Virus record (IMG/VR): IMGVR_UViG_3300032331_003054
Span: 1 to 28,515 of that record
Direction: 5' to 3' (one strand)
DNA length: 28,515 bases
Origin: a virus
Part shown: one piece after another, positions 3,906 through 27,917 of the stretch
Numbering within the stretch: position 1 is the stretch's first letter
How the letters are laid out: each line of letters begins with the position of its first letter
The notes under the pieces: generated by a model
The model's database searches: none
The model's input: the letters and a program-made list of their open reading frames with translations, nothing else
What the model was told of the DNA's origin: nothing
Translations under genes and position numbers: made by a program

Positions 3906-3909
3906 GATC

Positions 3910-10481: not shown

Positions 10482-10489
10482 TAAATATC
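10482..10489 (-). promoter_or_regulatory. GATATTTA box ahead of the homing endonuclease
   Basis: A one-base variant of the TATATTTA box, five bases before the chosen ATG at 10476. No TTTG at a suitable distance is obvious. It suggests that the mobile gene carries its own promoter, as homing endonucleases of T4-like phages often do. Confidence 0.3.
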
Positions 10490-10505
10490 ACAATAATTGA
10501 CTTCG

Positions 10506-12311: not shown

Positions 12312-12325
12312 AACCTTTATTTTCC

Positions 12326-12357: not shown

Positions 12358-12361
12358 CTTA

Positions 12362-12517
12362 TTAATTGGGAAGGTTAAGGGGAGGAGCGTTCTGTTCAAT
12401 TAACTCTAAATCTAAAGTCAATAATACACAGAAATCTTTTAAACTATCCCAGTCATGTTCTGCTAACATAACCAAATCCTTGTCGGGGATGTCGTCTAAA
12501 TAATTTTTAATACTCAC
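12362..12517 (-). CDS. Hypothetical 51-residue acidic protein, GTG start
   Basis: A frame from GTG 12515-12517 to TAA 12362-12364. The product (SIKNYLDDIPDKDLVMLAEH, then DWDSLKDFCVLLTLDLELIE) reads as a helical acidic protein with a proline-rich end. No ATG occurs before the acidic region, so GTG is proposed; it overlaps the stop of the preceding small gene by 11 bases. The frame extends open further upstream, which leaves the start uncertain. The terminator just after its stop supports the gene. Confidence 0.55.
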   Translation of the reverse strand: MSIKNYLDDIPDKDLVMLAEHDWDSLKDFCVLLTLDLELIEQNAPPLNLPN

Positions 12518-13306: not shown

Positions 13307-13948
13307 TTAAAGTCTACTAATAAACTCACTTCCATCATCTATTGGTTCTGATTTATCTAATCCTAATTCCAATAATCGTTGTTTAGTATACTCATCTAGT
13401 TCCCAATCTACTTCACTTTGGTTCATTGGTTTATGATCCTCTAACCCCTCAAGTTGCTTACCACTAAATATATCACCTACCATTAAGTAATAACAATTGT
13501 AACAAAGCATTTCCATATTATCTAATCGGTAATGTTGTTTGTTGTTGTCCTTGAAGTGCAAGATCAGTGGGGATTTATAATCTGAAACTCGGCGTTCATG
13601 GAAGCCGCAATTACAACATTCGTCTTTTAAATAACCATCTGTTATCAACCGATATTTAATCTTTTGTGGGTTGAAGTGAGATGGATCTATTCTACCTTCT
13701 ATAATATCTAAAATTGCTGGTTCTTTTTTATTAATACTAGACACTGATAAGAATTTAGGAATACCTTTACCTGACTGGTTCTTGTGAGCGTCAAATAAAG
13801 ATACTCCATTACTATCAACATATAATTTCATCCATTTCTTAATATGTTGGTAAGAGCAATTTAAGTAACGAGCAGCGGCGCGAACGGACTTTGTTTTATC
13901 CATTGCGCTGATGATCGATTCTTTAGTTAATGGTCTTGCTTTAGGCAT
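13307..13948 (-). CDS. Helix-turn-helix protein with degenerate HNH-like zinc domain
   Basis: Residues 8-42 of this 213-residue protein form a helix-turn-helix (SVRAAARYLNCSYQHIKKWM), the kind used by transposases and terminase small subunits. Residues 108-155 are an HNH-type core with two cysteine pairs (C111/C112 and C114; C149 and C152) around SPLILHFKDNN and RLDNMEMLCYNC. In active HNH enzymes the first strand usually reads HHxD and the last pair is followed by His; here they are LHF and NCYY, so at least one catalytic histidine is missing. It may bind DNA without cutting it. The C-terminus is acidic. It overlaps the zinc-finger gene upstream by eight bases. Confidence 0.75.
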   Translation of the reverse strand: MPKARPLTKESIISAMDKTKSVRAAARYLNCSYQHIKKWMKLYVDSNGVSLFDAHKNQSGKGIPKFLSVSSINKKEPAILDIIEGRIDPSHFNPQKIKYRLITDGYLKDECCNCGFHERRVSDYKSPLILHFKDNNKQHYRLDNMEMLCYNCYYLMVGDIFSGKQLEGLEDHKPMNQSEVDWELDEYTKQRLLELGLDKSEPIDDGSEFISRL

Positions 13949-14279
13949 GGTCTACATCTGGCTCAGTAGCGTCTTCTTCTAAATCGAAGTCGTTTAATGT
14001 TTTAGTATCATCATCCACATCTATTGAAACAGTTTCAATTGGATTTTCATCTTCAAGTAATTGTTTTCTGAAGTTCTTTTCTGCTTCTTCAATCTTACGA
14101 AGGTCTTCTCTATCAACAGCATATGTCTCAATCCAGGTGTGATCACCTTCTCCCATTTGTACTGTAACAGCTACTTTCTTCTCAACTGTTGAATGTTGAG
14201 TGCAAGTTCGCGTATTAGGCAAAATAGCTATTCGTCTTGGATCAATTTCAACCCCACATACGATACATTTTCTACTCAT
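13941..14279 (-). CDS. DksA/TraR-type zinc-finger protein with acidic tail
   Basis: The first 30 residues form a DksA/TraR-like zinc finger: CIVCGVEI (C5, C8), RRIAILPNTRTC (C26), QHS (H29, replacing the usual last cysteine). DksA and TraR bind RNA polymerase through its secondary channel and change initiation. The N-terminal coiled coil of DksA is absent, and the remaining 80 residues are helical, then strongly acidic (SIDVDDDTKTLNDFDLEEDA). It may be a phage transcription factor, or only a zinc-finger fold. It lies between two genes it overlaps by eight bases. Confidence 0.7.
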   Translation of the reverse strand: MSRKCIVCGVEIDPRRIAILPNTRTCTQHSTVEKKVAVTVQMGEGDHTWIETYAVDREDLRKIEEAEKNFRKQLLEDENPIETVSIDVDDDTKTLNDFDLEEDATEPDVDHA

Positions 14280-14676
14280 CTTTTTTACCTTTATTTTCTA
14301 TTTTATCAATTTTTTCTATTATCTTCCATAAGTCTTCAGGTGTCTTTAACTTATATTTTTTAGCTGGTTTGTCTTCAGGTGTGATTTCTAAATCTAATAT
14401 ATTTCCCTCAGCATCAATTCTGTCATACACATACCATAGAATTAATTCTGCTTTCCATTCCTCAAAATGTAAATAAATTAAATCCTCAATTATGTGATAG
14501 AAATGCTCTTCATAATTCCAGAAATCAACTTGTAGTTGGGTATGTAAGAAACTAGTTCTAATCCAACAGTTATCTAATTGAGACACAAGTCTAACAAATA
14601 ATTGTTTCTCTTTATTCTCAGCGTTCTTACTACTGTCTGTAACTCTAAGCTTAGTTCCAAAATTATTTAGATTCAT
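14272..14676 (-). CDS. Hypothetical 134-residue protein
   Basis: A soluble protein with aromatic, acidic helices in the middle (YEEHFYHIIEDLIYLHFEEW) and a lysine-rich C-terminus. No family is recognised. It is the first gene downstream of the glycan cassette, preceded by a TATATTTA box and the leader AAGAAAAATG, and it heads a three-gene overlapping set with the DksA-like and HTH/HNH-like genes. Confidence 0.75.
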   Translation of the reverse strand: MNLNNFGTKLRVTDSSKNAENKEKQLFVRLVSQLDNCWIRTSFLHTQLQVDFWNYEEHFYHIIEDLIYLHFEEWKAELILWYVYDRIDAEGNILDLEITPEDKPAKKYKLKTPEDLWKIIEKIDKIENKGKKDE

Positions 14677-14721: not shown

Positions 14722-15660
14722 TTATTTATAAAGATTTTTTAAAAAGTCTTTAAGATTCATAAAAGTGTAAGGTAAATGTTTATTGATACCTAACACATTA
14801 TGTAATGTTTTTAAGGCTACCATTCTTAAACGATACGCTCTATCATGACCTAATCTATCAGGTACAAATTTATATTTAACTTCTTTACCTAGTATATCTC
14901 CAATCACATTAATTATATCAATATTTTTATATTCTATCTCAGAACTAATATTATAAATACCATTTAATGTTCTATCATCAAACATTAAATCAGTTACTAT
15001 TTTAACATTATCATCAACATGTATCCATTGACGTACTTGCTGTCCGTCTCCATATACTGGTACTTCTTTTCCTTCTTTTATACACTCATGTATTTTAGGC
15101 AAGAATTTTTCTGGGTGTTGATGTTCACCAAAGTTATTACATGTGCGTGTGATCAGATATGGTAATCCAAATGTTCTATTAGCTGATGTGACTAATAAAT
15201 CAGATGCCGCTTTAGTTGCTGAGTAGTATGAACTAGGTCTTAATGGGAATGACTCAGTTGCGGATTGATTCAAGACTAAAGATTCATCAGCCATATCTCC
15301 ATATACTTCATCTGTTGATATTTGAACAAACTTTTTTAAGTTTTTGTTTTGTCTAGCACATTCTAATAAATTAAAAGTACCTTCTACATTTGATCTAATA
15401 AATGGTTTTCCATTTGCTATGGAATTATCAACATGCGACTCAGCAGCAAAGTTAACTAGGTAATCATATTCACCTAAATCATCAATGGTAACATCACATA
15501 TGTCTTTTTCTAAAAACTCAACTTCATGTTTAATATTATCTTTATTAGCCGCGTATGTCATTACATCTACACAAAGTATATCACATTCATAATTAGATTT
15601 AATATAATTAATAAATGATGATCCTATAAATCCTGCTCCACCTGTAACTATTATTCTCAT
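14722..15660 (-). CDS. dTDP-glucose 4,6-dehydratase-like NDP-sugar enzyme
   Basis: The 312-residue extended short-chain dehydrogenase has the NAD-binding GGAGFIGS (residues 7-14), the family block FAAESHVDNSI, the catalytic STDEVYG (T116, D117, E118) and YSATK (Y146, K150), then RTCNNFGEHQHPEKFLPK and the QVRQWIHVDD block. RmlB enzymes turn dTDP-glucose into the 4-keto-6-deoxy sugar, the branch point to rhamnose and other deoxysugars. The nucleotide (dTDP, CDP or other) cannot be fixed from sequence. It is the last gene of the cassette and overlaps the GT2 gene by four bases. Confidence 0.85.
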   Translation of the reverse strand: MRIIVTGGAGFIGSSFINYIKSNYECDILCVDVMTYAANKDNIKHEVEFLEKDICDVTIDDLGEYDYLVNFAAESHVDNSIANGKPFIRSNVEGTFNLLECARQNKNLKKFVQISTDEVYGDMADESLVLNQSATESFPLRPSSYYSATKAASDLLVTSANRTFGLPYLITRTCNNFGEHQHPEKFLPKIHECIKEGKEVPVYGDGQQVRQWIHVDDNVKIVTDLMFDDRTLNGIYNISSEIEYKNIDIINVIGDILGKEVKYKFVPDRLGHDRAYRLRMVALKTLHNVLGINKHLPYTFMNLKDFLKNLYK

Positions 15661-16421
15661 ATAAATTTTAAATTATTATTTGGGTTATGTTTAATATATT
15701 CTCCCCATTTATAGAGAGCATAATCATGACATTCTTTTTCTATCATTTGGTTTTCTCTTACTTTATCAGGAGTACGAGTACCTAATGATACAAAGTGATA
15801 AAAATAGGTTTTATATGTTCTAAGCATTTTTAATCCACTCATCTGGCATTTCATAAAGAACTCCCAATCAACAACCCATGGCCCAGGATATGATTCATCA
15901 AATCCTCCTACTTTTAAATAATCTTCTTTACTAATAAGGAATGGGAATGTTGATCCATCTTCTTTAACTTCATCTTTAGCTATTGATTGTTCAAACTCCC
16001 AAAATGCTTTTAAATCAAATGTATTAACATCCCGCCCTAAATCTTTAATATAAAATTGATTAAACATACTTGGAGTAGGTTCAATTTGATTTACAGATAA
16101 TACTGAATTTGGTTGGTAATGGCTTTCTAAATTAACATCCCAATTTTTTGAGAATACATTATCATCTTGAGCATGTAATACTAAATCATAAGAAGCATTG
16201 TATGTTCCTAGATTCATAGCTTTAATCATACCAACATTACTTTCTAAATTAAGAATATCAATTGAGTCAGCATATTTTTCAAGTACTTCTTTATTTAAAT
16301 CATAGAACCCATCTACAACAACAATAATTTGATTTTTATTAACTTGACCTTCAATAGCTGATCTAAGAGTTAGGTCGAGTGCCTCAGGCTCTTTATAAGT
16401 AGGAATAATTAAACTAAGCAT
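15657..16421 (-). CDS. GT2 family glycosyltransferase
   Basis: The 254-residue product is a GT-A fold enzyme of the GT2 type: LSLIIPTYKEPEAL at the N-terminus, VVVDGFYD (34-41), NVGMIKAMNLG (62-72), and LHAQDDNVF with the metal-binding D86-D87. It would add a sugar from a nucleotide donor to a growing glycan in the cytosol. A later block (GGFDESYPGPWVVDWEFFMKC) has the usual ED/WE acceptor-side residues. It overlaps genes on both sides. Confidence 0.85.
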   Translation of the reverse strand: MLSLIIPTYKEPEALDLTLRSAIEGQVNKNQIIVVVDGFYDLNKEVLEKYADSIDILNLESNVGMIKAMNLGTYNASYDLVLHAQDDNVFSKNWDVNLESHYQPNSVLSVNQIEPTPSMFNQFYIKDLGRDVNTFDLKAFWEFEQSIAKDEVKEDGSTFPFLISKEDYLKVGGFDESYPGPWVVDWEFFMKCQMSGLKMLRTYKTYFYHFVSLGTRTPDKVRENQMIEKECHDYALYKWGEYIKHNPNNNLKFI

Positions 16422-17112
16422 ATTGACTCCAGTCTGTTAATGGTGATAACCAAGCTGTTTCCCCATGAGTTGAGTAACCAGGTATTGGTGTTATTAAAAA
16501 TTCGTCTTGATCCATTAACTCTAAAAACATACTAAAATCATGTGGATGTGATCCACTTGTATGTTTTCTTAAAATATCTTCAGTTCGTTTTAAAGTAGAT
16601 ACTTTAGCAGCGAATGTCATAGTAGTACTATTTGTTATCTTCCAATGACATGAATCTGTTAAATATATTCTAGTATCTTCAGCTCCATTATCACAGTATG
16701 GATTACCTCCTTGATTTGGAGTCATATACTTATCAGGATGATCATATAGTGATACAAATGATGGATCTAAATCAAATCCTTCTTTAAAAATATTTCCTGA
16801 GTTTGGTTTGTGTAAATAATCATTTTCAATGAAATAAATTATTTCATCATCTGGGGATTGTAATGCTTCATCTAAAGCTAGATTAAATGTACCTGCTCCA
16901 TGACCTACTGAGACATACATTACGTAATCTTTAGAGATGTATTTTTGGATCATATCATTTGTCTTTTCAGATGTATTATCAGCTATGATAGACCAATCAT
17001 ATTCTGATGTAGGGAATGTTTGGAGAGCATTTTTTAAACAATTTTCATTGTTTATATATTCTGGTTTTACTTTACTATAACCAGCGTCTGATATTCTGTA
17101 TATTATTTTCAT
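16414..17112 (-). CDS. Probable GT-A fold glycosyltransferase
   Basis: The 232-residue protein starts with a strand (MKIIYRISDAG), has DWSIIADN (nucleotide-side), GAGTFNLALDEALQ and YFIENDYLHKP, where END (96-98) stands at the place of the DxD metal site, and later HPHDFSMFLELM and GYSTHGETAW. This pattern is like GT2-related transferases found in sugar cassettes of environmental phages and bacteria. Donor and acceptor are unknown. Confidence 0.65.
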   Translation of the reverse strand: MKIIYRISDAGYSKVKPEYINNENCLKNALQTFPTSEYDWSIIADNTSEKTNDMIQKYISKDYVMYVSVGHGAGTFNLALDEALQSPDDEIIYFIENDYLHKPNSGNIFKEGFDLDPSFVSLYDHPDKYMTPNQGGNPYCDNGAEDTRIYLTDSCHWKITNSTTMTFAAKVSTLKRTEDILRKHTSGSHPHDFSMFLELMDQDEFLITPIPGYSTHGETAWLSPLTDWSQYA

Positions 17113-17903
17113 ATTTCTATTATCTTTTGATCTAAATTATGGAAGTGACATATTCCGTCTAAGAATATATTTTTATGGCTGCAGTCATGTATATTATAAT
17201 ATCTAATGTAATCTAGTAATGCTTTATATTGTTTATCAGAGATAAGATGGTATTTAGTAAGATTATTTCTAATAATACTTTCAGCTAAGAATTTCTCACA
17301 AGCCCACCCATCAACATATTCCCATATCTTACCATTGTAATTAGGTATACTTAATGAGTATTCATAAGTATCATTCACATATTTTTTATCATTAATAAAA
17401 TCAGTTTTAGATACATTAATAAAATAAAAATTTGTCTGGGGGAAGAAATCATCATTAATTATCTTATTATAATCAAAATCATAAGGAACCATTCCTCCAT
17501 ACCCAATTCCATTTAAATAATAAAAATCAGCATCCTCAATTTCTTTTTCTAATATGGATTCTTTCATTAAAATATCATGAGCTGATTTACATACCCATTC
17601 TATATCATTTTGTTTACAATAATCAAAGATTAAATCATCTAAATCAGTTGTACCAAAATTATGTCCTCGATTTATTTTAGAATTTAATATTATACAATTT
17701 GGAAAATATTCTTTCCATATATTATCTGATTGCTCAATTAATTCTAAGGATTGATAATTTGTAGCTACAATTATTTGTTTAAATTCTTTTAGTACTTGTA
17801 GGTTAAATAGTATATATTGTTCTAATTGTTCTAATGAGTTAGAGGAAGCTATATAACCTGTTGTACCGTAATAACTTTTATTAATTATTTCCTTTAATAA
17901 CAT
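17109..17903 (-). CDS. Cassette protein, possible GT-A like glycosyltransferase
   Basis: The 264-residue product has an N-terminal alternating strand/helix region (QIIVATNYQSLELIEQ; NRGHNFGTTDLDDLIFDYCK), a WVCKSAHDILM block at the place of the DxD motif and YVDGWACEKFLAESI later. This layout suggests a GT-A fold but no signature is decisive. It sits inside the cassette, overlapping the reductase gene by 23 bases and the next by four. Also possible: a glycan-modifying enzyme of another fold. Confidence 0.5.
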   Translation of the reverse strand: MLLKEIINKSYYGTTGYIASSNSLEQLEQYILFNLQVLKEFKQIIVATNYQSLELIEQSDNIWKEYFPNCIILNSKINRGHNFGTTDLDDLIFDYCKQNDIEWVCKSAHDILMKESILEKEIEDADFYYLNGIGYGGMVPYDFDYNKIINDDFFPQTNFYFINVSKTDFINDKKYVNDTYEYSLSIPNYNGKIWEYVDGWACEKFLAESIIRNNLTKYHLISDKQYKALLDYIRYYNIHDCSHKNIFLDGICHFHNLDQKIIEI

Positions 17904-18591
17904 TTTTTAATTTATTAACATTCATACTTACATTTTTAGGAACATTCATAGGAGTAAAATCAGGTATAACATCTCCTGCTAAACTAAACATAGTTTTTAA
18001 TTCTGTCCCTACATTATATAAACCTGTAGCTTCTTTTTCAATTAACTGTTTTATTAAAGCAGCCATTACATCTACATAATCAAAATTACCTACTTGGTCA
18101 ACCCAAGCTTTATTGTAAGGAAATGGTCTTTGTTTATGAGTACCTCTTAAAACTAAATTATTTTCATTTAATTGAACATAACTATCTCCTAATAGTTTAG
18201 TGTAACTATACCAATTATTACCATGGATTGGGACATCATTTTCACTAGCATTATTTATTGAGTTAGTATAAACATAATCAGTTGATATATGAACTAATTT
18301 AATATCATGTTTAAAACAAAAATCAGATAATTTAATAACACTTTTGTAATTGATGTCCCAATGTAAATCTTTATTGTCTGAGTAGGTGTTAGTATTGGCT
18401 ATACAATTTATTATTACATCATATTTTTTCCACCAAGCTACTGAGTCATGGTCTTCTAAAAAGAATTTATAATATGAACTATAATTACTTATATCAAATC
18501 CATCTTTTTTTCTAGATATAAATTCCCATCCTGTTTGTTTAACAAGCTCAGAACCTAACAACCCATCTCCAAGAATAACGATTTTACTCAT
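17881..18591 (-). CDS. RmlD-like dTDP-4-dehydrorhamnose reductase family protein
   Basis: The 236-residue short-chain dehydrogenase has a GDGLLGS nucleotide-binding loop (8-14), INCIANT, ISTDYVYTNS and the catalytic pair in YSYTK (Y128, K132). RmlD reduces a 4-keto sugar nucleotide in the last step of dTDP-rhamnose synthesis; this protein is shorter than typical RmlD (about 290 residues). The start at 18591 gives a normal MSKIVILGDG N-terminus; an upstream ATG would add 23 unlikely residues inside the RfbH-like gene. One base separates it from that gene, so both are probably in one pathway. Confidence 0.8.
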   Translation of the reverse strand: MSKIVILGDGLLGSELVKQTGWEFISRKKDGFDISNYSSYYKFFLEDHDSVAWWKKYDVIINCIANTNTYSDNKDLHWDINYKSVIKLSDFCFKHDIKLVHISTDYVYTNSINNASENDVPIHGNNWYSYTKLLGDSYVQLNENNLVLRGTHKQRPFPYNKAWVDQVGNFDYVDVMAALIKQLIEKEATGLYNVGTELKTMFSLAGDVIPDFTPMNVPKNVSMNVNKLKNVIKGNN

Positions 18592-18592
18592 A

Positions 18593-19876
18593 TTAGAATT
18601 TCTTAATAACGCTTTCAATATAATTAAATACATCTTCGGTATAATGCGGGGCAGCACCAATAAAAAACACTTTATCTAATACCTTATTAGCTTCAGGATA
18701 ATCTAAAGTATTATCTAATGATGAGTAACCAGGATGTAGTAAGATATTACCTGCGAAATAATTCCGTGTTTGGATTTTATTGTCTTCTAGATATTGAACT
18801 AATCTATGTTTTAATCCTTCTTCCTCACATATAAATGGAGTTCCGAACCAACATGGATCAGCTTTATCTAAAGTTTTAGGTACTCTAAGCCCAGGTATGT
18901 TGTCTGTAAATATTTTTTCTAATCTTTCTTTAGATGTTTTACGATTCGCTTCAATTTCATCTAATTTAGATAATTGAACTACTCCAATTGCACCTTGCAA
19001 ATCTAATGGTTTTAGATTATAACCCATATTAGAGAATACATACTTATGATCTATTACTCCATCATATGAATCTAACCATTTATCAAAACGTTTACCACAA
19101 GTACCACAAGCTAATAAATTAGCAGCTCCCACACAGTGACAATCTCTTCCCCACCAAGCAATACTCATCATTAACTTTTTTAACTCTTCATCATTAGTAC
19201 ATACCATTCCACCTTCACCAGTTGAAATATGATGTGCTGGGTAGAATGAGTTTGAAAATGCTACATAGTATTCATTTAAATATTTTCCATCCCACTTACT
19301 TCCTAAACTATCACAATTGTCACCTACTAGTTTAAGATCATATTTTTCACAAATTTCTAATAAACGATCAAAATCAGGTGGGTTACCTAATACTGGTGAT
19401 ACAAAAATTGCTTTAGTACGAGGTGTGATTTTAGCTTCTAATTGATCTAAATCAAAGTTTAAAGTATCCCATTCAATATCAATAAAGACTGGTTTAAGTC
19501 TATTTTGGTGTAAAACTGATATAGTAGTAGCAAAACCAACAGGTGATACAATTACTTCATCATCGTCTGCCCAATTAAATCTTTTCTTTAAGGCAGCTAT
19601 TAATACTAGGTTAGCTGATGAACCTGAGTTAACCATTAGATTATATTTGGAACCAAATCTTTTACCAAATAGTCTTTCAAATTTAAAAACACTTTCACCT
19701 GTGGTAACCCATTTACCATTTAAAAAAGTATACATTGCTGCTTCTATTTCTTGATTATCCCAATATGGTCCTGAGTAATAGATAGGAGTTTCTCCTGGGG
19801 TGAATGCTTTTGAATTGTACACATATGGAACTAAATGTCCATCTAATAATGATTTGATACTGTCTATTGTAATCAT
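18593..19876 (-). CDS. RfbH-like PLP/PMP-dependent sugar 3-dehydratase (DegT/DnrJ/EryC1 family)
   Basis: The 427-residue protein follows the DegT fold: MVNSGSSANLVLIAAL, VGDNCDS, FSNSFYPAHHISTGEGG. At the place of the PLP-binding lysine stands H215, as in E1/RfbH and ColD dehydratases, which use PMP rather than transaminating. After WWGRD come C246, C248, C257 and C260 (CHC...CGTCGKRF), matching the iron-sulphur cysteine region of RfbH-type enzymes, then DHKYVFSNMGYNLKPLDLQG. Such enzymes remove the 3-hydroxyl from a 4-keto-6-deoxy nucleotide sugar to make 3,6-dideoxyhexoses. A reductase partner (E3) is needed and is not seen. Family call strong; exact sugar unknown. Confidence 0.85.
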   Translation of the reverse strand: MITIDSIKSLLDGHLVPYVYNSKAFTPGETPIYYSGPYWDNQEIEAAMYTFLNGKWVTTGESVFKFERLFGKRFGSKYNLMVNSGSSANLVLIAALKKRFNWADDDEVIVSPVGFATTISVLHQNRLKPVFIDIEWDTLNFDLDQLEAKITPRTKAIFVSPVLGNPPDFDRLLEICEKYDLKLVGDNCDSLGSKWDGKYLNEYYVAFSNSFYPAHHISTGEGGMVCTNDEELKKLMMSIAWWGRDCHCVGAANLLACGTCGKRFDKWLDSYDGVIDHKYVFSNMGYNLKPLDLQGAIGVVQLSKLDEIEANRKTSKERLEKIFTDNIPGLRVPKTLDKADPCWFGTPFICEEEGLKHRLVQYLEDNKIQTRNYFAGNILLHPGYSSLDNTLDYPEANKVLDKVFFIGAAPHYTEDVFNYIESVIKKF

Positions 19877-20742
19877 ATTTTATTTAATATATAGTTTGCT
19901 AAGTTTTTTGTTGTTAAATTTTCTTTAGTATAATTAAACATTTCATCTAATATAGTAAAATATCTTTGCTCATCAAAATTATTTGCTAATTCTCTTCCTT
20001 CAAGTAATAAATCTTTAGGTAGGTTAGCTAATGTATCTTTAGGACAATTTTCTAATCCTATAAAATAAGGCATACAATAGTTACCTAATATTTCATAATG
20101 TCTCATACAATCCCAACCCGCTTTTTTCATTGTTACACCATAATATGATTTTTGATAGTCTTCATAGTATGGTTGTTCTGATTTGAAAATATAAGTCTCA
20201 GGTTGCCCTGGTAAGCATGTAGCGTATTCTTGTGTTTTGTTTTTATTAGGTTCAGCTAATTTACTAGTAGGTGTACCAAATGTGATAGGTAATAAATTAG
20301 GGTGAGATTCTTGTAATTCTCTTTTAAAATAAAGATGCTTAGTATATAGTGGATCTAATTCAGGTTCATCATTTCCATCAATTAAAATTATTTTTGATGA
20401 TGGATAGTATTTAGAAACTAAATCATAATATTGTTTACAACGTTTAATCGCTCCATAGATAATTAAATCATAATATCTATCCTTAATTTTTTCTTCAATA
20501 TTAGAACGATCAATATTATTTTCTCCAATTAACCAAAATGTAGTCATACCACCCCATAAATGTTTAGAAGGGATTTTATTCTCATATTCCTTATATAATG
20601 AGATTATTTGAGTACTATCAACTACATCGTCACCAAATAATTCTCTTAATCCATAAAATATTAAATCATTTTGGTAGTCATTAATAAACCCACCACTAGC
20701 TTTAGCTATGTCAATATGATTAGTTATATATAATATTTTCAT
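19873..20742 (-). CDS. Cassette protein, possible GT-B like glycosyltransferase
   Basis: The 289-residue product begins MKILYITNHIDIAKASGG, like a GT-B N-terminal strand and glycine loop, has RYYDLIIYGAIKRCKQYYDL and IILIDGNDEPELDP, and a C-terminal block (KKAGWDCMRHYEILGNYCMP, YFIGLENCP) in which E218-like residues and an NGCxP-type loop resemble the donor site of some GT-B families. Without an EX7E motif the assignment stays tentative. It overlaps both neighbours. Confidence 0.5.
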   Translation of the reverse strand: MKILYITNHIDIAKASGGFINDYQNDLIFYGLRELFGDDVVDSTQIISLYKEYENKIPSKHLWGGMTTFWLIGENNIDRSNIEEKIKDRYYDLIIYGAIKRCKQYYDLVSKYYPSSKIILIDGNDEPELDPLYTKHLYFKRELQESHPNLLPITFGTPTSKLAEPNKNKTQEYATCLPGQPETYIFKSEQPYYEDYQKSYYGVTMKKAGWDCMRHYEILGNYCMPYFIGLENCPKDTLANLPKDLLLEGRELANNFDEQRYFTILDEMFNYTKENLTTKNLANYILNKI

Positions 20743-21374
20743 TAGCCTAATAAACCAGCAAAATAATTATAAACAGATTCTACATTAGGACCCATATAAT
20801 CGTCATTAGTAAATTTAATTTCAAAATTATCTTTCCAAAAGAAACAAATCTCATTTATATCATTTGAAAATGAAGAAGTTATATCTGACCAATCATATGA
20901 TTCTATAAAATTTAATTTAGGGTAAGCTACAAATTCATTTCCTTGGATATTATAAATCCAACGGTGATGAACCCAACCTAAGTATGGACCATTAACATAC
21001 CTAGTTAATTCCATATTTTTTGAAGGAACAGCTATAAAACCTTCTAATCCAATTTTATTAATCATTTCTGTCACCATCAATGGGGAACTAATATCCTCTA
21101 AAGTGTGGCTACATATTACAAAATCAAATTTTCCGTTTTTTTCAACATCCTCTAATACTTGATCCCATGTTTTTATAGAGCATATATTCCCTAAAAACCC
21201 TTTAGCTTTAGCATCAGTCCATACATTTATATCCATATAATGTGATAAGTATTCACTTGACCAACCAGCCATTGTAGCTCCAATGTCTAATACTCTTTTA
21301 AATTGTTTTTCTTTTAAGTAGTTTAATATTTCTTCTCGATTTGATAAATTAGAATATTTTAAATTATATATCAT
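20742..21374 (-). CDS. Class I SAM-dependent methyltransferase
   Basis: The 210-residue protein has a motif I variant RVLDIGATMAGWS (27-39), an acidic second strand and FDFVICSHTLEDISSP (83-98), as in class I methyltransferases of the type that modify sugars or small molecules. It likely methylates a hydroxyl or other group of the glycan. Its ATG shares a base with its downstream neighbour's frame, and it lies next to a second methyltransferase with 11 bases overlap. Confidence 0.75.
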   Translation of the reverse strand: MIYNLKYSNLSNREEILNYLKEKQFKRVLDIGATMAGWSSEYLSHYMDINVWTDAKAKGFLGNICSIKTWDQVLEDVEKNGKFDFVICSHTLEDISSPLMVTEMINKIGLEGFIAVPSKNMELTRYVNGPYLGWVHHRWIYNIQGNEFVAYPKLNFIESYDWSDITSSFSNDINEICFFWKDNFEIKFTNDDYMGPNVESVYNYFAGLLG

Positions 21375-21984
21375 TTGTATTTTGTTTTTTTATAAATAAA
21401 TAATCTTTTTGGAGTAAACTTCCATGTAAATAGTGTTCTTCAAGTATCTCAACAGGATAAAAACCAATCTCATCCATATATTTTATTACTTCATCATGTA
21501 ATGGTGCTCCTTCATTATATGGTGTGATGCTAACTTCTAATATAATACCTTTAGCTTTATTAATTAAATTTTTCCCTCCCATCATAATATCTAATTCTGA
21601 ACCTTGAGTGTCTATTTTTATTAGATCAAACTCAGAATTTTCTTCAAATAAATTATCTAACATCACACACTCTCTTTTTTGAATAATTAGATTATCATCT
21701 GAGAAGAAAGATGTTAATTCTTTGTATATTGAGTTGCCAGTACTTGTGGTGTCATTTTTATTCACATAAAAGTCTACAATTTTATTTTCTTTCCCTAAAA
21801 GACATATATAATAATCTTTTGTAAGTTGAGATAAATAATACTCACATTCTGGTGCTGCCTCAATACTAAAAACAAAACTATAAGGATATGCATTTTTGCA
21901 TAAAATATAGAATTGACCAACATTAGCTCCAATGTCTAATATACGGTTTGGGGTAAAATACTTATTAACTATTTGTATATTCAT
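21364..21984 (-). CDS. FkbM-family methyltransferase
   Basis: The 206-residue product has RILDIGANVGQF (14-25), FSIEAAPECEYYL, and the FkbM hallmark FDLIKIDTQGSELDIMMGG (119-137), followed by the ILEVS strand. FkbM enzymes O-methylate sugars of glycans and polyketides. With the neighbouring methyltransferase it would cap or decorate the glycan. Its start overlaps the upstream glycosyltransferase by 20 bases. Confidence 0.88.
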   Translation of the reverse strand: MNIQIVNKYFTPNRILDIGANVGQFYILCKNAYPYSFVFSIEAAPECEYYLSQLTKDYYICLLGKENKIVDFYVNKNDTTSTGNSIYKELTSFFSDDNLIIQKRECVMLDNLFEENSEFDLIKIDTQGSELDIMMGGKNLINKAKGIILEVSITPYNEGAPLHDEVIKYMDEIGFYPVEILEEHYLHGSLLQKDYLFIKKQNTNDI

Positions 21985-22903
21985 TGTAAAATACTTGATT
22001 AAATTTTTTCATTATATTTTCAGGTGTAAATTCTTGATAACAATTCCATTCTTTATGTTGTAAATCTGATTGGCTTAGATTGAGTAATATATTATATAAT
22101 GAGTTATAGTCTTGGTAGTATATTCCTTTATCTTTTAAAATTTCTATATGATTACATTCTGGTGAATTTTGGTAAGTTATAATAGGTTTATTTTGGGATG
22201 AAAATTCTGCTATAGCTAATCCAAATGTTTCTCCTCTTTCACGAGCATGAATCATAGCGTCACAAGTGTTAATAAATGCTACCTTTTGTTCTTGATCTGT
22301 AGTACCATTAATGAATATAGTATTTTCTAAGTCACTAAATGATTCTTGATTCATAAAGAGAAAAATAATATCTTTTCTTTTTTTAGCCACCTCTATTACA
22401 GCTTGTCTAACAAATGGAATTTCAAAATTATTTCCACCATACCATCCTATAACCAATTGATTTTTAATATTAAAGAAATCTTTAAAATTTTCATTTACAT
22501 TAGGTAAATTTACCATGTGAGGTACAAATGGAGAACCATTCCCATGAGTTTTAGCTAACCACTCAGAAACATAAGCATAAACATCACCATGAGGATCAAA
22601 TGAAGGAAACACTACATGAACTAAATTTTTAGAGTTTAAATGTGATACACCATCATTGAATCCATATTTTAAAGAATAAAAATAATCACAACTTATATTA
22701 TTAATATCTATGTAGGAGTTTACAATATGAGTTTCAAAACGATTATTAAATTTCTCAAAACTTTTTAATTCAGCATTATTTAATGATATAATAATAGATT
22801 TATTACCTAATATAACTTCATTAAAGTGAGCATAATCATATGTTGCTATACTAGTTCCTCTTTCATTTAAATTAGGATCAAAAAATATTGTTGTTTTACT
22901 CAT
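21965..22903 (-). CDS. GT-B glycosyltransferase (GT4-like)
   Basis: The 312-residue protein has a GT-B layout: an N-terminal FDPNLNERGTSIATYDYA region, a linker, then VIGWYGGNNFEIP opening the C-terminal domain and the donor-site motif EX7E (E225 to E233, in RGETFGLAIAEF) followed by KPIITYQN. It would transfer a sugar from a nucleotide donor with retention. It overlaps the GT2 gene by four bases. Confidence 0.8.
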   Translation of the reverse strand: MSKTTIFFDPNLNERGTSIATYDYAHFNEVILGNKSIIISLNNAELKSFEKFNNRFETHIVNSYIDINNISCDYFYSLKYGFNDGVSHLNSKNLVHVVFPSFDPHGDVYAYVSEWLAKTHGNGSPFVPHMVNLPNVNENFKDFFNIKNQLVIGWYGGNNFEIPFVRQAVIEVAKKRKDIIFLFMNQESFSDLENTIFINGTTDQEQKVAFINTCDAMIHARERGETFGLAIAEFSSQNKPIITYQNSPECNHIEILKDKGIYYQDYNSLYNILLNLSQSDLQHKEWNCYQEFTPENIMKKFNQVFYNEYTNS

Positions 22904-23520
22904 AATTTACTATAGAAATTATTTTGTGATTCTTGTCTTGATATATGTTTGTAATGATATAAAGAATATTCTTCAAACTCAGGTAAATAAGCATATGTTT
23001 TATACCCATCTAATACTTCATGTAATTTATTCACCCATTTAATATCAGAAGTATTTTTAAATATCCTCCATTGATAGTCTGGGAATTGAACCCACCCTTG
23101 ATCATTTTGCTTCCAACCCCACATTTGTAAATGTTGGGGTGTAATTCCTTCTACAATATTAATTCTAGGTGTTAAGATAACATCTGATCCTGAGTTAGAT
23201 AATATACTTGGGAGTGCTTCTAATAACTCTTCGTTAGGTAACTCATCAGCATCAATTTGAAAAATATAATCACCAGAGCACATTCTATTTAACTCATTTT
23301 TCCAATCAGCAAAATGACCTTGGAATGCGCTTTCTTTTAAGATGATAATATCTTTAGATGACCAATAATATAATTCATCTAATAACTCTTGAGATGCTTT
23401 TGGTTTATCTAATAAAACACAAATTTCATCTTCAAATCGTTTATGTTGATGAAGGAAATTAAGTAAACGACTTACTTCTTCCAGTTCATTACAAACTGTA
23501 ATTGCATAACTAATTTTCAT
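22900..23520 (-). CDS. GT2 family glycosyltransferase
   Basis: The 206-residue product starts MKISYAITVCNELEEVSRLL and has the DxD metal site in FQIDADELPNEELL (D90, D92). GWVQFPDYQWRIFKN and WVNKLHEVLDGY are the acceptor-side blocks typical of the LgtF/WaaE-like GT2 group, which adds sugars to lipopolysaccharide-type glycans. Short but complete for this group. Confidence 0.85.
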   Translation of the reverse strand: MKISYAITVCNELEEVSRLLNFLHQHKRFEDEICVLLDKPKASQELLDELYYWSSKDIIILKESAFQGHFADWKNELNRMCSGDYIFQIDADELPNEELLEALPSILSNSGSDVILTPRINIVEGITPQHLQMWGWKQNDQGWVQFPDYQWRIFKNTSDIKWVNKLHEVLDGYKTYAYLPEFEEYSLYHYKHISRQESQNNFYSKL

Positions 23521-23536
23521 ATAACCTAATATAATA

Positions 23537-23995
23537 TTACTTTGTCAATAGGCCAATGTAATCTAAAGCATCTATAAAATCTCTTTCATCAAAATGTTGA
23601 AGCGATTCCATATCCATTCTGTATTCATAAAACTTGCCTGGTTGTTTTGGGATTGGGAATTTATGTTTTTCTTCCTCAGTTACTGGTATTGCTTTTACAG
23701 CTGACCATTTCCAATTATCTATCCCTGTTCCATTTGCAAACACCATACCTTGTTTAGGCTCATTAATAGTTTGTGGTAACCATATTAAATTAGTTTTAGG
23801 ATCTGTCCAAGCTAGTATTTTATATAGTTCAGGTAGAACTTCAAATTGTTCATTATAGAATTCACTTCCTTCAATCATAAGTGAATTAGTCCAAAATCCA
23901 CAAGATAAAGACATCCAATTTGTAATCTCAGGTGTTACTTCTATTTCGTAACATAAATCCCCTCCTGATTTAGGGCAATTAATAATCTTATCCAT
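23537..23995 (-). CDS. Hypothetical 152-residue protein inside the glycan cassette
   Basis: The product starts INCPKSGGDLCYEIEVTPEI and contains three early cysteines, a tryptophan/glycine-rich middle (SLSCGFWTNSLMIEG) and a charged C-terminus (ESLQHFDERDFIDALDYIGL). No glycosyltransferase or methyltransferase motif is visible. It overlaps the 435-residue glycosyltransferase gene by eight bases, so it belongs to the operon. It may be a zinc-dependent or structural partner, possibly the protein acceptor of the glycan; that is only a guess from position. Confidence 0.75.
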   Translation of the reverse strand: MDKIINCPKSGGDLCYEIEVTPEITNWMSLSCGFWTNSLMIEGSEFYNEQFEVLPELYKILAWTDPKTNLIWLPQTINEPKQGMVFANGTGIDNWKWSAVKAIPVTEEEKHKFPIPKQPGKFYEYRMDMESLQHFDERDFIDALDYIGLLTK

Positions 23996-25295
23996 TATTT
24001 TCTATTTTTTTCAATTTTGGTAATTCAATTTTCTTTAATTTAGGAAGTTGTAATTTAATTTCTTTTGGAAACTCAGGAATATATTTAATAAATAATTCAT
24101 CAACTTTATCCTTCATTTTTTCCCAACTAAACTCAGTTTTACTTTTATGTGATTGACGTTTTGCTCCATCAATATATTTTTTATAATCTTCAAACATATC
24201 TTTAATAACAGTACCAGTATGCCCTAGATCAACTGAGAACCATTGTGACTCTTTTAGTAACCATTGATTGGCAGCACTTGAATGTACCTCTGTTAATTTA
24301 CCTGGTAACATTGTTGTAAACTCCGGGTTTAAGAAATCTACTTGCCCACTCCAGTTAGTTGTAATAATTGGTTTTTTAGTTAAACTAAATTCAAGTAATG
24401 GTCGTCCAAATCCTTCACCTTTAGTTAAATTAATCATCGCTTTAACTTTAGAATGATTATATAATTCATTCATTTCAGTATCACTAAATTCACCATGTAA
24501 AACGTATATGTTAGGTAAATCTTTACTGTTAATTGATTTTTTAATTAAAGTAATTTTTCTTAAGATTTCATCTCTATCAAGATATGAAGATCCCATTTGA
24601 GATGTTTTTAAAATTAATGCTGGTTTGTCTTTTTTGTTTTTAAAGATCTCATAAAACATTTTAATCAATAAACCAACATTCTTTCTATCCTCACCTAGAT
24701 CACCATTGATACAGTGACCAACAAATAAAAATGCAAATTTTTCTTTAATATTAGTTATTTCAGGGAATGAATCTACTTTATCAAGTGTTTTATAAATCTC
24801 AACATTTGCTCCTTCAAATAATACTTCAATTGGTTTTTCAATTTTAACTTCACCAATTGGTTGATTAGTATGTTGATCTATTTTTTGTAAAACAGTACTA
24901 ATAAATGTTTTCTTTGAATGTTCTGAAGAAGTTAACACTAAATTCATTTTATTGCATCCTTCAATCCAGTCTCCAGGTGCTACAGTTGTTTCAATTCCTG
25001 CTGTTACTCCAATATTATATTTTCCTACTGGTCGAAATTCACTTGGTATAGTAATTTGCATCCATATTTCAGGTTGTTTAGGTAATTGTGGATATTTCCA
25101 TAAATGATCATTTAAAAATTCCCATTCTGGGTTATCACTAATAAATCCCCAAGGTGTATTACCCCACATTTGTGGGATAATTTTAACATCATATTTGTCT
25201 ATAGCAATAATTGCTTTAACTAAATCTCGAGATCGTGCTCCATATCCTGAGTAAGTATCTATAGGACATGATATAAAAAATAACGGTTTGCTCAT
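23988..25295 (-). CDS. GT4 family glycosyltransferase with repeated basic tail
   Basis: The 435-residue GT-B enzyme has SGYGARSRDLV near the N-terminus (acceptor side), VTAGIETT, FLFVGH opening the C-terminal domain and the EX7E donor motif (E294 to E302 in KGEGFGRPLLEF) followed by KPIITTNWSGQVDFL. After the catalytic domain the protein ends in a short tandem repeat of LPKLKKIE, absent from usual GT4 enzymes, which could anchor it to a membrane or partner. The leader AAAAAGTTATATG precedes the start. Confidence 0.85.
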   Translation of the reverse strand: MSKPLFFISCPIDTYSGYGARSRDLVKAIIAIDKYDVKIIPQMWGNTPWGFISDNPEWEFLNDHLWKYPQLPKQPEIWMQITIPSEFRPVGKYNIGVTAGIETTVAPGDWIEGCNKMNLVLTSSEHSKKTFISTVLQKIDQHTNQPIGEVKIEKPIEVLFEGANVEIYKTLDKVDSFPEITNIKEKFAFLFVGHCINGDLGEDRKNVGLLIKMFYEIFKNKKDKPALILKTSQMGSSYLDRDEILRKITLIKKSINSKDLPNIYVLHGEFSDTEMNELYNHSKVKAMINLTKGEGFGRPLLEFSLTKKPIITTNWSGQVDFLNPEFTTMLPGKLTEVHSSAANQWLLKESQWFSVDLGHTGTVIKDMFEDYKKYIDGAKRQSHKSKTEFSWEKMKDKVDELFIKYIPEFPKEIKLQLPKLKKIELPKLKKIENNG

Positions 25296-25306
25296 ATAAC
25301 TTTTTA

Positions 25307-26743
25307 TTAATAAACTAATTTATGTGGTACTACTTTGTCTTGAGTTTCGTTTGCATTTACTAACTCATATTTTTCTCTTGGTTTCCAAGTTTTAAATAAT
25401 TTATCTAATGTTTTAATAACTTTTTTACCCATGTTCTCAGCTGTGAATCCTGCTTCATCTGATAAAGCCCATTCACGACCTTTTAATCCTAACGCTTGTC
25501 TTTTTTCTTTACCTAGATCATAAACAGCTTTAATTTGTTCAGCTGCATCTTCTGCATTGCATCTGTCATCCCAAATATAAGGTGTTAATGGAGAACCCTG
25601 AATTGATCTGTTAGTTGGATATACTGGGAAGGCCCATTCACCATGTTCTTTAATAGTGCCATTATGGTTTGAAGGAAAATCAACACTAAAATCAATCCAT
25701 TTACCTTTCTTACTAAAGCGCATTTGGTCTTGCATTCCACCTGTCACATTTGCAATAATTGGATTACCTGCTAAAATTGCTTCAGTTAAGCTTAATCCCC
25801 ATCCCTCATTATTAGTTAATAAGATTTGAACATCAGAGCAATTATATAATAAATTCATTCCTCTAGGATCTAACACTTGATTAGAAAAGATAATATTATA
25901 TTTAGAATCACTTCCAAATAACATTTCTCGTACTGCTTCTAAATCAGTACCATTATCATCTACTACTTGAGTATGTAATACAAAAGCACATTTTCTTGCT
26001 TGCTCATCAGTTAATGAATCAATAAAGATTTTATAGGCAAATAATGTATCAGGAATTTGTTTACGTCTAATATTTCTAGAATTAAAAAACATAACAAAAT
26101 CAAATTCTTTACCTCCAAATAATTTTTTCTTAAACTCAACTAATTCTTTATCATTTTTATCAAGAGGCTTAAATACTTCTTCATTTAATCCATGAGGAAC
26201 ATATTCAATAATCTTATTTTTAGCTTTACCACCTAACACTAACTCATTAATGTTTTTAGTTTGTTTTGAGATAGCTAATAAAGCATCACATGACTCATAA
26301 TATCCTTTATTATACATTGGAGCCGGATAGTCATCCCAAATATTAAGATAAATAATAGGCATTTTCTTTCTAACCTCATTTTCAATTTGGAATAACCAAA
26401 TGAAATATCTTGGGTCTGTAATCAAGAATATAGCATCCGGATTTTCTATGCTAATCAGTTGTCTAATTAAATTAGCATCACCATACCCATTAGTTGGATA
26501 TAAGATAATTGATGAGTCAGTTAACCCAGTATTATTATTAGTATCTGAGGATAGGTCTAATCGTTTACCTTGTTCAGGATGATTAATAGCACCTCCTACA
26601 TTCACCCAATTAAAATGTTGGGCTGTGTTTAATACTAATTCTCGAGCGATAGTTGCTACACCTGAGTGTACTCTAATATCATCACAGATTAGTAAGATTT
26701 TCTTCCTCTCATTCTGGGGAAGATAAGCAAAACTTGAATTCAT
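25307..26743 (-). CDS. GT4 family glycosyltransferase
   Basis: The 478-residue GT-B enzyme has KILLICDDIRVHSGVATIAR (N-terminal strand and glycine loop), YLNIWDDYPAPMYNKG, FFNSRNIRRKQIPDTL and the donor motif EX7E (E313 to E321, NNEGWGLSLTEA) followed by NPIIANVTGGMQDQM. It is the first gene of the glycan cassette, probably making the first or longest linkage; that order is an inference. The leader AAAAAGTTATATG is identical to that of the next GT4 gene. Confidence 0.87.
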   Translation of the reverse strand: MNSSFAYLPQNERKKILLICDDIRVHSGVATIARELVLNTAQHFNWVNVGGAINHPEQGKRLDLSSDTNNNTGLTDSSIILYPTNGYGDANLIRQLISIENPDAIFLITDPRYFIWLFQIENEVRKKMPIIYLNIWDDYPAPMYNKGYYESCDALLAISKQTKNINELVLGGKAKNKIIEYVPHGLNEEVFKPLDKNDKELVEFKKKLFGGKEFDFVMFFNSRNIRRKQIPDTLFAYKIFIDSLTDEQARKCAFVLHTQVVDDNGTDLEAVREMLFGSDSKYNIIFSNQVLDPRGMNLLYNCSDVQILLTNNEGWGLSLTEAILAGNPIIANVTGGMQDQMRFSKKGKWIDFSVDFPSNHNGTIKEHGEWAFPVYPTNRSIQGSPLTPYIWDDRCNAEDAAEQIKAVYDLGKEKRQALGLKGREWALSDEAGFTAENMGKKVIKTLDKLFKTWKPREKYELVNANETQDKVVPHKLVY

Positions 26744-26754: not shown

Positions 26755-26940
26755 TTATCGATTTAAATTGTTGTGGTTGTGGATATTTTTGCGAAATTCT
26801 TCATCTGTAAGATATAAATGAACTGTGCGATCTACAAGCTTTTGTAAAGAAAACTTATGTTTTACACAACTCATTTTAAAATCTTCAAATAACTCGCTTT
26901 GTACTTTAACACTTGTTAGTGTCATTTCTTTTTTACTCAT
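26755..26940 (-). CDS. Ribbon-helix-helix DNA-binding protein
   Basis: The 61-residue product matches the ribbon-helix-helix layout: a strand (MTLTSVKVQSELF), helix A (EDFKMSCVKHKF), the turn SLQKLVDRTVHLYL and a charged end. Such dimers repress transcription by reading DNA with the N-terminal strand. It stands at the head of the glycan cassette, 11 bases from the first glycosyltransferase, and may regulate it or the promoter at 26957-26964. Confidence 0.8.
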   Translation of the reverse strand: MSKKEMTLTSVKVQSELFEDFKMSCVKHKFSLQKLVDRTVHLYLTDEEFRKNIHNHNNLNR

Positions 26941-26981: not shown

Positions 26982-27917
26982 TTACTTATTACATAAATCT
27001 TTTTTATCATTATAAGGGCACCATTGGCAATTCTTATTTACAGTAATTGAATGAGTAGTGTCCTTATATGACCCATCAGTGTTAAAACATTGTTCAAGAA
27101 AGTTATTAATTGCTGTTACAGCTTTCTTTATTTTAATTTTACCACTTGGAGGAGTATATTCTTGAAGACGACTTTGAGGAAACTCACTTTCCTCCCATAT
27201 TTTTCTCTTTAGTATAAGGAAATCAACTTCAATTTGATCTTCAGGAATGTTAAATTGTTTACTAAAAAAGTACTTATATAGTATCAATTGAAATTGTTTA
27301 CCCTCATCTTTCTTAGTTTCATCATTCCATCCTCGAGTAGACGTCTTAAAGTCGATTATCTTAAATGTATTAGTAGGTTCGTGATATAATACCAAGTCGA
27401 TGAAACCCTTGAATAATACGTTTTTAAACGCGTTATTAGGCGTCATTACAATTGGTAACTCAACCTTAACTAAATGCCATCCTTTCCTACTAAAGTACTG
27501 TCCTCGTTTCTTTTTGAATTGACTGAGTATGTTCAGTCCGTCTTCATAGAATTCTCTCATTTCGGTAGCGCCACTAAAATGAGTACTTTTATTTTTCTTA
27601 TACTCGTCTAAGTATACTTTACGAAATGTTTCCTCAAACTGTTTCTCAATATCAACTCTATCAGCTGCGGCAGCACTTTCCTCAAACATCACTGTTAAGT
27701 GACTTTGAAGTACTTCATGCATCGCAGTTCCAAATACAGTATGAATTGTAGGTTTATACTCCTGTAATCCGTCTTTATATTGTAATTCCCATTTGTGAGG
27801 GCATTCTTTATAAACAGAAAATTGGCTATAAGAGATAGTCTTATGGTAAGCATAATTTATCTCTTGAGGAGTATAGTTCCTGATAGTTTTAACTATCGAT
27901 GGTATTTTAGTGCTCAA
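26982..27917 (-). CDS. RecB/Cas4-like PD-(D/E)XK nuclease with iron-sulphur cysteines
   Basis: The 311-residue protein has the PD-(D/E)XK core of the RecB/AddB/Cas4 group: SYSQFSVYKECP, GTAMHEVL (H67), GFIDLVL (D174), FKIIDFKTS (D189, K191) and QFQLILYKYFF. C39 together with C297, C300 and C309 (NCQWCPYNDKKDLC) gives the one-plus-three cysteine pattern that binds a 4Fe-4S cluster in AddB, Dna2 and Cas4. It would be an ssDNA or dsDNA exonuclease used in replication, recombination or processing. It overlaps no neighbour but is only eight bases from the small gene upstream. Confidence 0.85.
   Translation of the reverse strand: MSTKIPSIVKTIRNYTPQEINYAYHKTISYSQFSVYKECPHKWELQYKDGLQEYKPTIHTVFGTAMHEVLQSHLTVMFEESAAAADRVDIEKQFEETFRKVYLDEYKKNKSTHFSGATEMREFYEDGLNILSQFKKKRGQYFSRKGWHLVKVELPIVMTPNNAFKNVLFKGFIDLVLYHEPTNTFKIIDFKTSTRGWNDETKKDEGKQFQLILYKYFFSKQFNIPEDQIEVDFLILKRKIWEESEFPQSRLQEYTPPSGKIKIKKAVTAINNFLEQCFNTDGSYKDTTHSITVNKNCQWCPYNDKKDLCNK

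Follow-up and report, generated by a model that had tools for sequence, protein, structure and literature searches.

A run of 14 tightly spaced open reading frames on the minus strand of a T4-like phage fragment (14722-26743, about 12 kb) encodes mostly enzymes of glycan synthesis and raises the question of which glycan is made and to what acceptor it is attached. The locus was analysed within its window, the whole stretch of 28,515 nucleotides.

Gene content and layout of the locus

A sequence-only reading of the window had described 14 genes with gaps of at most 16 bases and mostly overlapping starts, and this was borne out: no gap is wider than 16 bases, and at most of the junctions the neighbouring genes share 1-23 bases. 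One longer overlap of 68 bases, between g09 and g10, is gone if g10 begins at an internal ATG (18591). The same reading had counted at least five glycosyltransferases (GTs) and up to three more. Five were confirmed by Pfam (g01, g02 and g05 as Glycos_transf_1, PF00534; g04 and g13 as Glycos_transf_2, PF00535; all above the curated cut-off) and a sixth, g12, by its predicted fold; g08 and g11, which like g03 gave no family match, are possibly GTs, adding at most two candidates. The two methyltransferases (g06, g07) and three sugar-nucleotide enzymes (g09, g10, g14) claimed before were recovered by Pfam, g07 just below the cut-off. Several GTs and nucleotide-sugar enzymes are thus combined in one co-directional unit, as in phage glycan-synthesis gene clusters.

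All flanking genes lie on the minus strand as well. To the left are the small ORF h61 (26755..26940), which is conserved in relatives with a dN/dS of 0.03, a PD-(D/E)XK exonuclease that forms the conserved left anchor (26982..27917; PF12705, E 9e-25; phrog_69) and a clamp-loader-like protein truncated by the contig end (28113..28514; phrog_225, E 6e-17). The conserved right anchor starts with h134 (14272..14676), which is conserved beside the DksA and HNH genes in relatives, followed by the DksA-like and HNH endonuclease genes themselves (13307..14279), identified by Pfam/PHROGs and synteny. In agreement with the earlier statement that internal promoters and terminators are lacking, promoter-like sites between 13000 and 28515 were found at chance level (108 versus 105.7 expected), and only two terminator-like sites, both weak, are present on the minus strand of the cassette (18108-18092 and 16556-16542). 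An intergenic hairpin occurs in six copies elsewhere in the window and in none within 12.4-28.5 kb, and a search of Rfam gave no match. Since the gaps at the exonuclease and clamp-loader genes are only 8-41 bases, the transcription unit probably extends upstream into these genes. Of the single operon proposed before, the tight packing was retained, and in evolutionary terms the 14 genes fall into two units, a core (g01-g04, 22900-26743) and a swap block (g05-g14, 14722..22903), both on the minus strand.

Conserved core and exchanged block

The core encodes two GT-B enzymes, g01 (25307..26743, 478 aa, GT1/GT4-like) and g02 (23988..25295, 435 aa), the 152-aa protein g03 (23537..23995) and the GT2 enzyme g04 (22900..23520, 206 aa), all on the minus strand. 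By megablast the cassette had no match in phage records and, therefore, relatives were recovered by protein searches. The exonuclease is followed by g01 in 80 of the 80 IMG/VR loci recovered, and g02-g04 come next in this order wherever the contig is long enough. Identity of g01 across relatives ranges from 58 to 96%, and in distant relatives the core is often better conserved than the exonuclease. The dN/dS of the core genes (0.09-0.13) indicates purifying selection. No function could be assigned to g03; an alignment revealed zinc-ribbon-like cysteines in many relatives, and an AlphaFold model computed from the window and IMG/VR sequences reached a pLDDT of 95 and had no fold match in the PDB.

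Next to this constant part the block is replaced. In two near relatives (L014 and L086), nucleotide homology of 86-91% ends at the stop codon of g04 and restarts at the stop codon of g14, and the interval is filled with mostly unrelated sugar genes. Across 69 loci the blocks, roughly 4-12 kb in size, encode 528 proteins that fall into 272 families at 50% identity, with sugar-nucleotide enzymes, methyltransferases and GTs as Pfam content. Core identity and block content are nearly independent (r=0.20 over 666 pairs), and seven of eight pairs with 95-99% identical g01 have no family in common. These findings show that close relatives exchange the block wholesale, like bacterial serotype loci. 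The comparison of cassette content across related genomes, suggested before as a check, thus yielded a division into fixed core and swapped block that the sequence-only reading did not contain.

The relatives belong to a lineage of T4-like aquatic myoviruses near Immutovirus, as seen from the syntenic core and a T4-type gp23 that is 59-67% identical in six of the eight long relative contigs; no capsid gene was found among the proteins scanned in the 28.5-kb window. Flavobacterium phage vB_FspM_immuto (NC_055915) has the same arrangement of PDDEXK exonuclease, small ORF, two GTs, a 152-aa protein, GT2, variable sugar genes, DksA and HNH, and its core proteins are 44-58% identical to those of the window, but its block has other content and its record carries gene names only. 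Microcystis phage Mel-JY01 (complete, 190 kb) carries g01, g02, g04, g12 and g13, with g01 divided into two ORFs and g03 missing. Among 84,980 cellular (GTDB) genomes, two short peptide patterns that detect close relatives only found g01 on just six contigs, all with the same phage synteny. A host-derived cassette was ruled out on this ground for the close relatives scanned, and the idea of a recent chance transfer from a host genome lacking purifying selection did not hold, given the low dN/dS of the core and of g08.

Predicted sugar chemistry of the block

All genes of the block are on the minus strand. The first, g05 (21965..22903), encodes a GT-B enzyme, g06 (21364..21984) an FkbM-type methyltransferase (PF05050, E 1.5e-19; NCBIfam TIGR01444 above cut-off) and g07 (20742..21374) a SAM methyltransferase (Methyltransf_23, PF13489, 26.9 bits at a cut-off of 27). 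The product of g08 (19873..20742) has no assigned function; the gene is common to two other loci, L007 and L027 (88%), and is under purifying selection (dN/dS about 0.095). For g11 (17109..17903), possibly a divergent GT, homologues were found in four loci and no informative match. The GT-A fold of g12 (16414..17112), which has no Pfam match, was assigned from an AlphaFold model (pLDDT 81) with Foldseek matches to GnT-I (1fo8, E 6e-7), SpsA and LgtC and a profile match to TarS. The GT2 enzyme g13 (15657..16421; PF00535, E 1e-12) has a relative near the 3' end of many blocks, with 29 matches among block proteins.

Three enzymes point to the sugar. The product of g14 (14722..15660) resembles the dTDP-glucose 4,6-dehydratase RmlB (Pfam Epimerase; PDB 6bi4, E 8e-61; 289 bits to TIGR01181, under the 365-bit equivalog cut-off), g10 (17881..18591 with the ATG start) an RmlD-like 4-ketoreductase (PF04321, E 1e-16; PDB 2ggs, E 2e-10) and g09 (18593..19876) an RfbH/E1-type NDP-4-keto-6-deoxyhexose 3-dehydrase (Pfam DegT; PDB 3bcx, E 3e-77; 364 bits to the NCBIfam RfbH model, under the 423-bit equivalog cut-off). 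A plain aminotransferase leading to a 4-amino-4,6-dideoxy sugar was considered for g09 and dropped after alignment, in which its SFYPAHH motif, expected to hold the catalytic His, aligned with 3bcx and four cysteines occupied the Fe-S cluster site. With g14, g09 and g10, the three enzymes that mark a 3,6-dideoxyhexose pathway are represented. Because g09 is of the RfbH/E1 type, the product is probably a 3,6-dideoxyhexose, judged from family chemistry, with specificity and nucleotide predicted. In the proposed route g14 would dehydrate host-supplied dTDP-glucose to the 4-keto-6-deoxy sugar, g09 would strip the C3 hydroxyl and g10 would then reduce C4; g05, g12 and g13 would attach sugars and g06 and g07 methylate them. 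A nucleotidylyltransferase and an E3 reductase are absent from the block. At the level of gene families, the proposal of a phage unit for synthesis, transfer and methylation of an unusual deoxysugar was upheld. Clusters of this generic kind are already known from T4-like phages.

Candidate acceptors of the glycan

To narrow down the acceptor, the 528 block proteins were subjected to a hydropathy scan, a crude membrane test that nevertheless detected the positive controls Wzx, Wzy and WcaJ of E. coli. Four proteins had one hydrophobic segment, none was polytopic, and no flippase, polymerase or membrane transferase was found in any of the 69 blocks, nor any membrane protein in the window; this lack had been overlooked in the sequence-only reading. 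The locus, therefore, does not have the make-up of a Wzx/Wzy-type O-antigen or capsule locus. A GtrABC O-antigen conversion cassette, with membrane GtrA and GtrB and a specific GtrC, was not found either, matches to the GtrB profile being weak and confined to soluble GT2 domains. Since the blocks are without such membrane components, the acceptor is probably cytoplasmic.

By elimination, we give slightly better than even chances to glycosylation of a virion protein with a conserved inner and a strain-specific outer glycan. The two GT-B enzymes, the orphan-fold protein g03 and the GT2 enzyme would build or attach the inner glycan common to the clade, and the replaceable block would contribute the outer part, through rare sugars in activated form and through transferases and methyltransferases of its own. 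Because all enzymes are soluble, sugars would be added in the cytoplasm, most likely onto a virion protein, so that phages sharing a particle would differ in surface chemistry and might benefit from shielding or altered adsorption. The presence of g01, g02, g04, g12 and g13 in phages of hosts from different phyla is as expected for an acceptor carried by the phage. None of the products of the cassette was recognized as a known initiating transferase, the type that attaches sugar to protein. Virion glycosylation has a precedent in mycobacteriophages (Freeman 2023, as referred to in PMC12619734). The capsid glycans of chloroviruses are added in the cytoplasm and combine a conserved core with virus-specific sugars (PMC5408694, PMC7826918); the virus itself encodes the soluble GTs, the enzymes for nucleotide sugars and a methyltransferase. 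The best solved relative of g01 is B736L of chlorovirus NY-2A (3oy2, profile E 5e-10), whose own biochemical function is unresolved (PMC5408694). In contrast to the phages, chloroviruses infect eukaryotic algae and have an unrelated capsid and no single swap locus, and the homology is at the level of the GT family only.

Soluble GTs can extend the LPS core or lipid-linked intermediates of a host, whose flippases then export the product. Accordingly, the enzymes may act on lipid-linked acceptors and alter the envelope of the infected host at the LPS core or at glycans linked to lipid or protein; superinfection would thereby be blocked or receptors changed, with the block tracking the receptors of local competitors. 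Clusters of cyanophages and pelagiphages are usually interpreted in this way (PMC7029224, PMC7824862), and the variability of the block would suit a receptor arms race, but we consider it rather unlikely here: the 69 blocks lack the membrane transferase, flippase and polymerase of the E. coli O-antigen and colanic-acid loci, and g01 and g02 are common to phages of two hosts with different envelopes, Flavobacterium and Microcystis.

Phage GTs are well known to glycosylate DNA, and the sugars could be placed on T4-like 5-hydroxymethyl pyrimidines or on a 7-deazaguanine that DpdA inserts, as a protection from nucleases. DpdA is encoded by immuto and by five of the eight long relative contigs, and GTs, methyltransferases and sugar enzymes together would suit a complex base modification. 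However, DpdA is missing from Mel-JY01, which has g01, g02 and g04, and so is any protein of the thymidylate-synthase family (PF00303), to which dCMP/dUMP hydroxymethylases belong; G001, the nearest long relative contig, also carries core GTs and has DpdA and no PF00303 protein, and PHROGs labels the immuto protein as thymidylate synthase. The PF00303 result applies to these two relatives, the window being a genome fragment. Moreover, the near-complete turnover of outer sugars would exceed the need of base protection, and this acceptor appears improbable. The search for DpdA and PF00303 could miss base modification by divergent enzymes or by another route. Virion, DNA and host envelope, left equally open before, are thus no longer on a par: the evidence favours the virion and disfavours DNA, with a soluble extension of host LPS core retaining some probability. 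That the block is passive cargo or stuffer DNA, as proposed for cyanophage LPS clusters (PMC3037559) and in line with a content nearly random relative to the core, is very improbable given the strong purifying selection on the core and g08, the mostly sugar-related, densely coding blocks on almost exclusively one strand and the replacement at gene boundaries.

Returning to the virion protein as acceptor, a further-reaching version, which we hold tentatively and at somewhat less than even chances, is a clade of T4-like phages with a true serotype locus, in which four fixed genes make an inner virion glycan by cytoplasmic protein glycosylation, the outer antigenic sugars change between near-identical phages through exchange of the block and g03 is a new-fold component, perhaps for acceptor recognition. 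Bacterial O-antigen and capsule serotype loci have the same constant flanks and exchanged interior of GTs and rare-sugar genes but, unlike the phage blocks, encode Wzx/Wzy or initiating membrane transferases. The LPS clusters of the T4-like cyanophages P-SSM2 and S-SSM7 also contain soluble epimerases, GTs and a methyltransferase (PMC3037559), but they lie at another genome position, are sporadic among relatives and have no fixed core-plus-swap layout in that report; tblastn of the phage collection gave no g01 match in P-SSM2 at E 1e-5. The host-recognition cluster of pelagimyophages is likewise a hypervariable GT-bearing island of T4-like aquatic phages (PMC7029224), but it averages 44.6 kb and lies amid structural genes with tail fibres, whereas the locus of the window has exonuclease and DksA flanks and sugar genes only. 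In the literature searched we found neither a core-plus-swap architecture nor a description of the immuto block, and nothing specific on the immuto cassette, phage serotype swapping or phage dideoxyhexoses. If the serotype reading is true, it would be the phage counterpart of bacterial serotype variation, altering surface chemistry and not the particle, and would bear on adsorption, grazing, clearance and phage competition in water. The role of LPS clusters in T4-like phages becomes an experimentally addressable question in the isolated relative immuto, and the locus is also a pointer to soluble enzymes for rare deoxysugars.

Gene content of the cassette and its conserved core

The window is an IMG/VR virus fragment of 28.5 kb taken in full; positions 14722-26743 are filled by 14 minus-strand ORFs (g01-g14) whose gaps do not exceed 16 bases, as the sequence-only reading had described, and the glycan enzymes claimed there were borne out by Pfam matches and by the fold of g12. 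Pfam assigned three GT-B and two GT2 glycosyltransferases (GTs), one FkbM and one Methyltransf_23 methyltransferase and, on the sugar-nucleotide side, a DegT-family protein, an RmlD-like and an RmlB-like enzyme; g12 had no Pfam match and its predicted fold is that of a GT-A transferase. The exonuclease adjoining the cassette was most similar to that of Flavobacterium phage vB_FspM_immuto (44% identity), whose locus has the same order as the window (PDDEXK exonuclease, small ORF, GT, GT, 152-aa protein, GT2, sugar genes, DksA, HNH), and on long contigs of relatives there is a gene for a gp23-type capsid protein with 59–67% identity to the immuto capsid. A Bacteroidota host would fit the fact that most starts have no Shine-Dalgarno-like sequence upstream.

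In 80 of 80 IMG/VR loci, retrieved via the exonuclease, g01 followed that gene, and g02, g03 and g04 came behind it in this order wherever the contig was long enough (core, 22900-26743). Some relatives have an extra gene between core genes; in L014 (13922-14908), L035 and L069, a gene resembling GDP-mannose 4,6-dehydratases by eye lies between g02 and g03, and thus the core is also open to insertions. Two ORFs are found at this place in L064 (13964-15308); by eye, the first is similar to an ORF between g01 and g02 in L060 and the second is homing-endonuclease-like. The 152-aa protein g03 (23537-23995) was predicted at pLDDT 95 from 28 homologues, and its fold had no match in the PDB (best E 0.8, TM-score ~0.2); its one viral homologue is uncharacterised. 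In the alignment, many relatives start with a CxxC...CxxC-like zinc ribbon, which is partly lost in the lineage of the window.

Median dN/dS among close relatives was 0.087 for g01, 0.101 for g02, 0.125 for g03 and 0.130 for g04, and 0.095 was found for g08; by these low values, these genes are maintained. The cassette is phage-borne rather than the copy of a host-genome equivalent: in a scan of 84,980 cellular genomes with two short peptide patterns that reach close relatives, g01 relatives were confined to six contigs with the same phage synteny. In GTDB, phage contigs with the same locus (L116-L121) have been placed in bacterial or archaeal MAGs (Woesearchaeota, Pelagibacter and others).

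Exchange of the block behind g04

Comparing cassette content across related genomes, as the sequence-only reading had suggested, revealed a fixed core and an exchanged block (g05-g14, 14722-22903). Window and L014/L086 (160.8-kb contig) are 87–91% identical in nucleotide sequence as far as the stop codon of g04 and 91% identical again beginning at that of g14; across the 8 kb between, there is no identity. In nine of ten compared relatives reaching that point, homology was lost within ~20 bases of the g04 stop, and different genes begin right behind it; the right anchor (h134, DksA-like and HNH genes) is conserved in loci retrieved via the HNH gene. From 69 loci, some of them near-duplicates, 528 block ORFs (50 aa or longer) were obtained, falling into 272 families at 50% and 202 at 30% identity, and the first swapped gene belonged to 32 families among the 55 loci with a left boundary. 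Complete blocks comprise 4.2–11.9 kb, with nearly all genes on a single strand. Core identity barely predicted shared block content (r = 0.20, 666 pairs); seven of eight pairs with 95–99% identical g01 had no block family in common, and block genes 75–84% identical were found in loci whose g01 is only 56–76% identical. Judged from these comparisons of sequence, the block variation is module exchange rather than rapid divergence. Single genes are exchanged as well, because g08 is common to L005, L007 and L027 and a relative of g11 to L007 and L027 (not L005), amid otherwise different genes. A homing-endonuclease-like gene (9895-10491) and the HNH gene of the right anchor (13307-13948) may promote recombination at the cassette. 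An 83-aa gene directly before h134 in 18 loci (e.g. L096:8422-8673) was found in neither the window nor L014.

Pfam matches of 148 block-family representatives were mainly epimerases/dehydratases, RmlD, GDP-mannose dehydratase, many methyltransferases, GT2, DegT and nucleotidyltransferases. In the window, g14 is dTDP-glucose 4,6-dehydratase-like, g10 is RmlD-like and g09 aligned with the E1 3-dehydrase 3bcx over 406 residues (E 3e-77), including SFYPAHH and the four-cysteine site; as is established for E1, the histidine replaces the usual PLP lysine and the cysteines are the cluster site. Against RfbH, g09 scored 364 bits, under the equivalog cut-off. Together, g14, g09 and g10 are predicted to be the central part of a 3,6-dideoxyhexose pathway, whose nucleotidylyltransferase and E3 reductase partner would have to be supplied by the host or by genes elsewhere in the phage. 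No g09-like E1/RfbH protein was found in the other blocks examined. Some of these contain unusual genes (L030:15068-16009; L014:16841-18193), such as, by eye, KASIII/FabH-like and HAD-like ones, hinting at acylated or unusual sugars.

Acceptor of the sugar

Among virion, DNA and host envelope, all considered by the sequence-only reading, a virion protein would be the most economical acceptor. A 19-residue hydropathy scan, which picked up Wzx, Wzy, WcaJ and Wzc in the E. coli O-antigen and colanic-acid control loci, revealed a polytopic protein neither among the 528 block proteins nor in the cassette of the window; the P-SSM2 cluster was likewise soluble. A soluble extension of the host LPS core is compatible with this absence, which argues against a Wzy-type or GtrABC-type envelope modification. 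Moreover, g01, g02, g04, g12 and g13 recur in a Microcystis phage, so these genes travel with the phage and not with one host envelope. DNA is disfavoured, since Microcystis phage Mel-JY01 lacks DpdA as well as a thymidylate-synthase/hydroxymethylase, and since the latter enzyme is also missing from the nearest long relative contig, which does encode DpdA.

The favoured virion target has a parallel in chloroviruses, in which soluble virus-encoded GTs decorate the capsid protein with a conserved core and virus-specific sugars (PMC7826918, PMC5408694). The best solved relative of g01 is a chlorovirus GT4, an enzyme whose biochemical role is not settled. Virion glycosylation in mycobacteriophages was described by Freeman et al. 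2023, as referred to in PMC12619734, and glycan clusters of T4-like cyanophages and pelagiphages are already known (PMC3037559, PMC7029224, PMC7824862). In the literature searched, no description was found of the strict core-plus-swap architecture, its exchange among near-identical phages or its all-soluble make-up.

A repeat element outside the cassette

A 49-nt intergenic element is present in six copies (927-975, 3907-3955, 7009-7057, 7550-7598, 9304-9352 and 12323-12371) and absent from 12.4–28.5 kb of the window. It contains a GGCC-TTCG-GGCC hairpin or a variant thereof, lies mostly directly upstream of gene starts, also occurs in the close relatives L014, L003, L004 and L085 and is possibly a mobile regulatory stem-loop.
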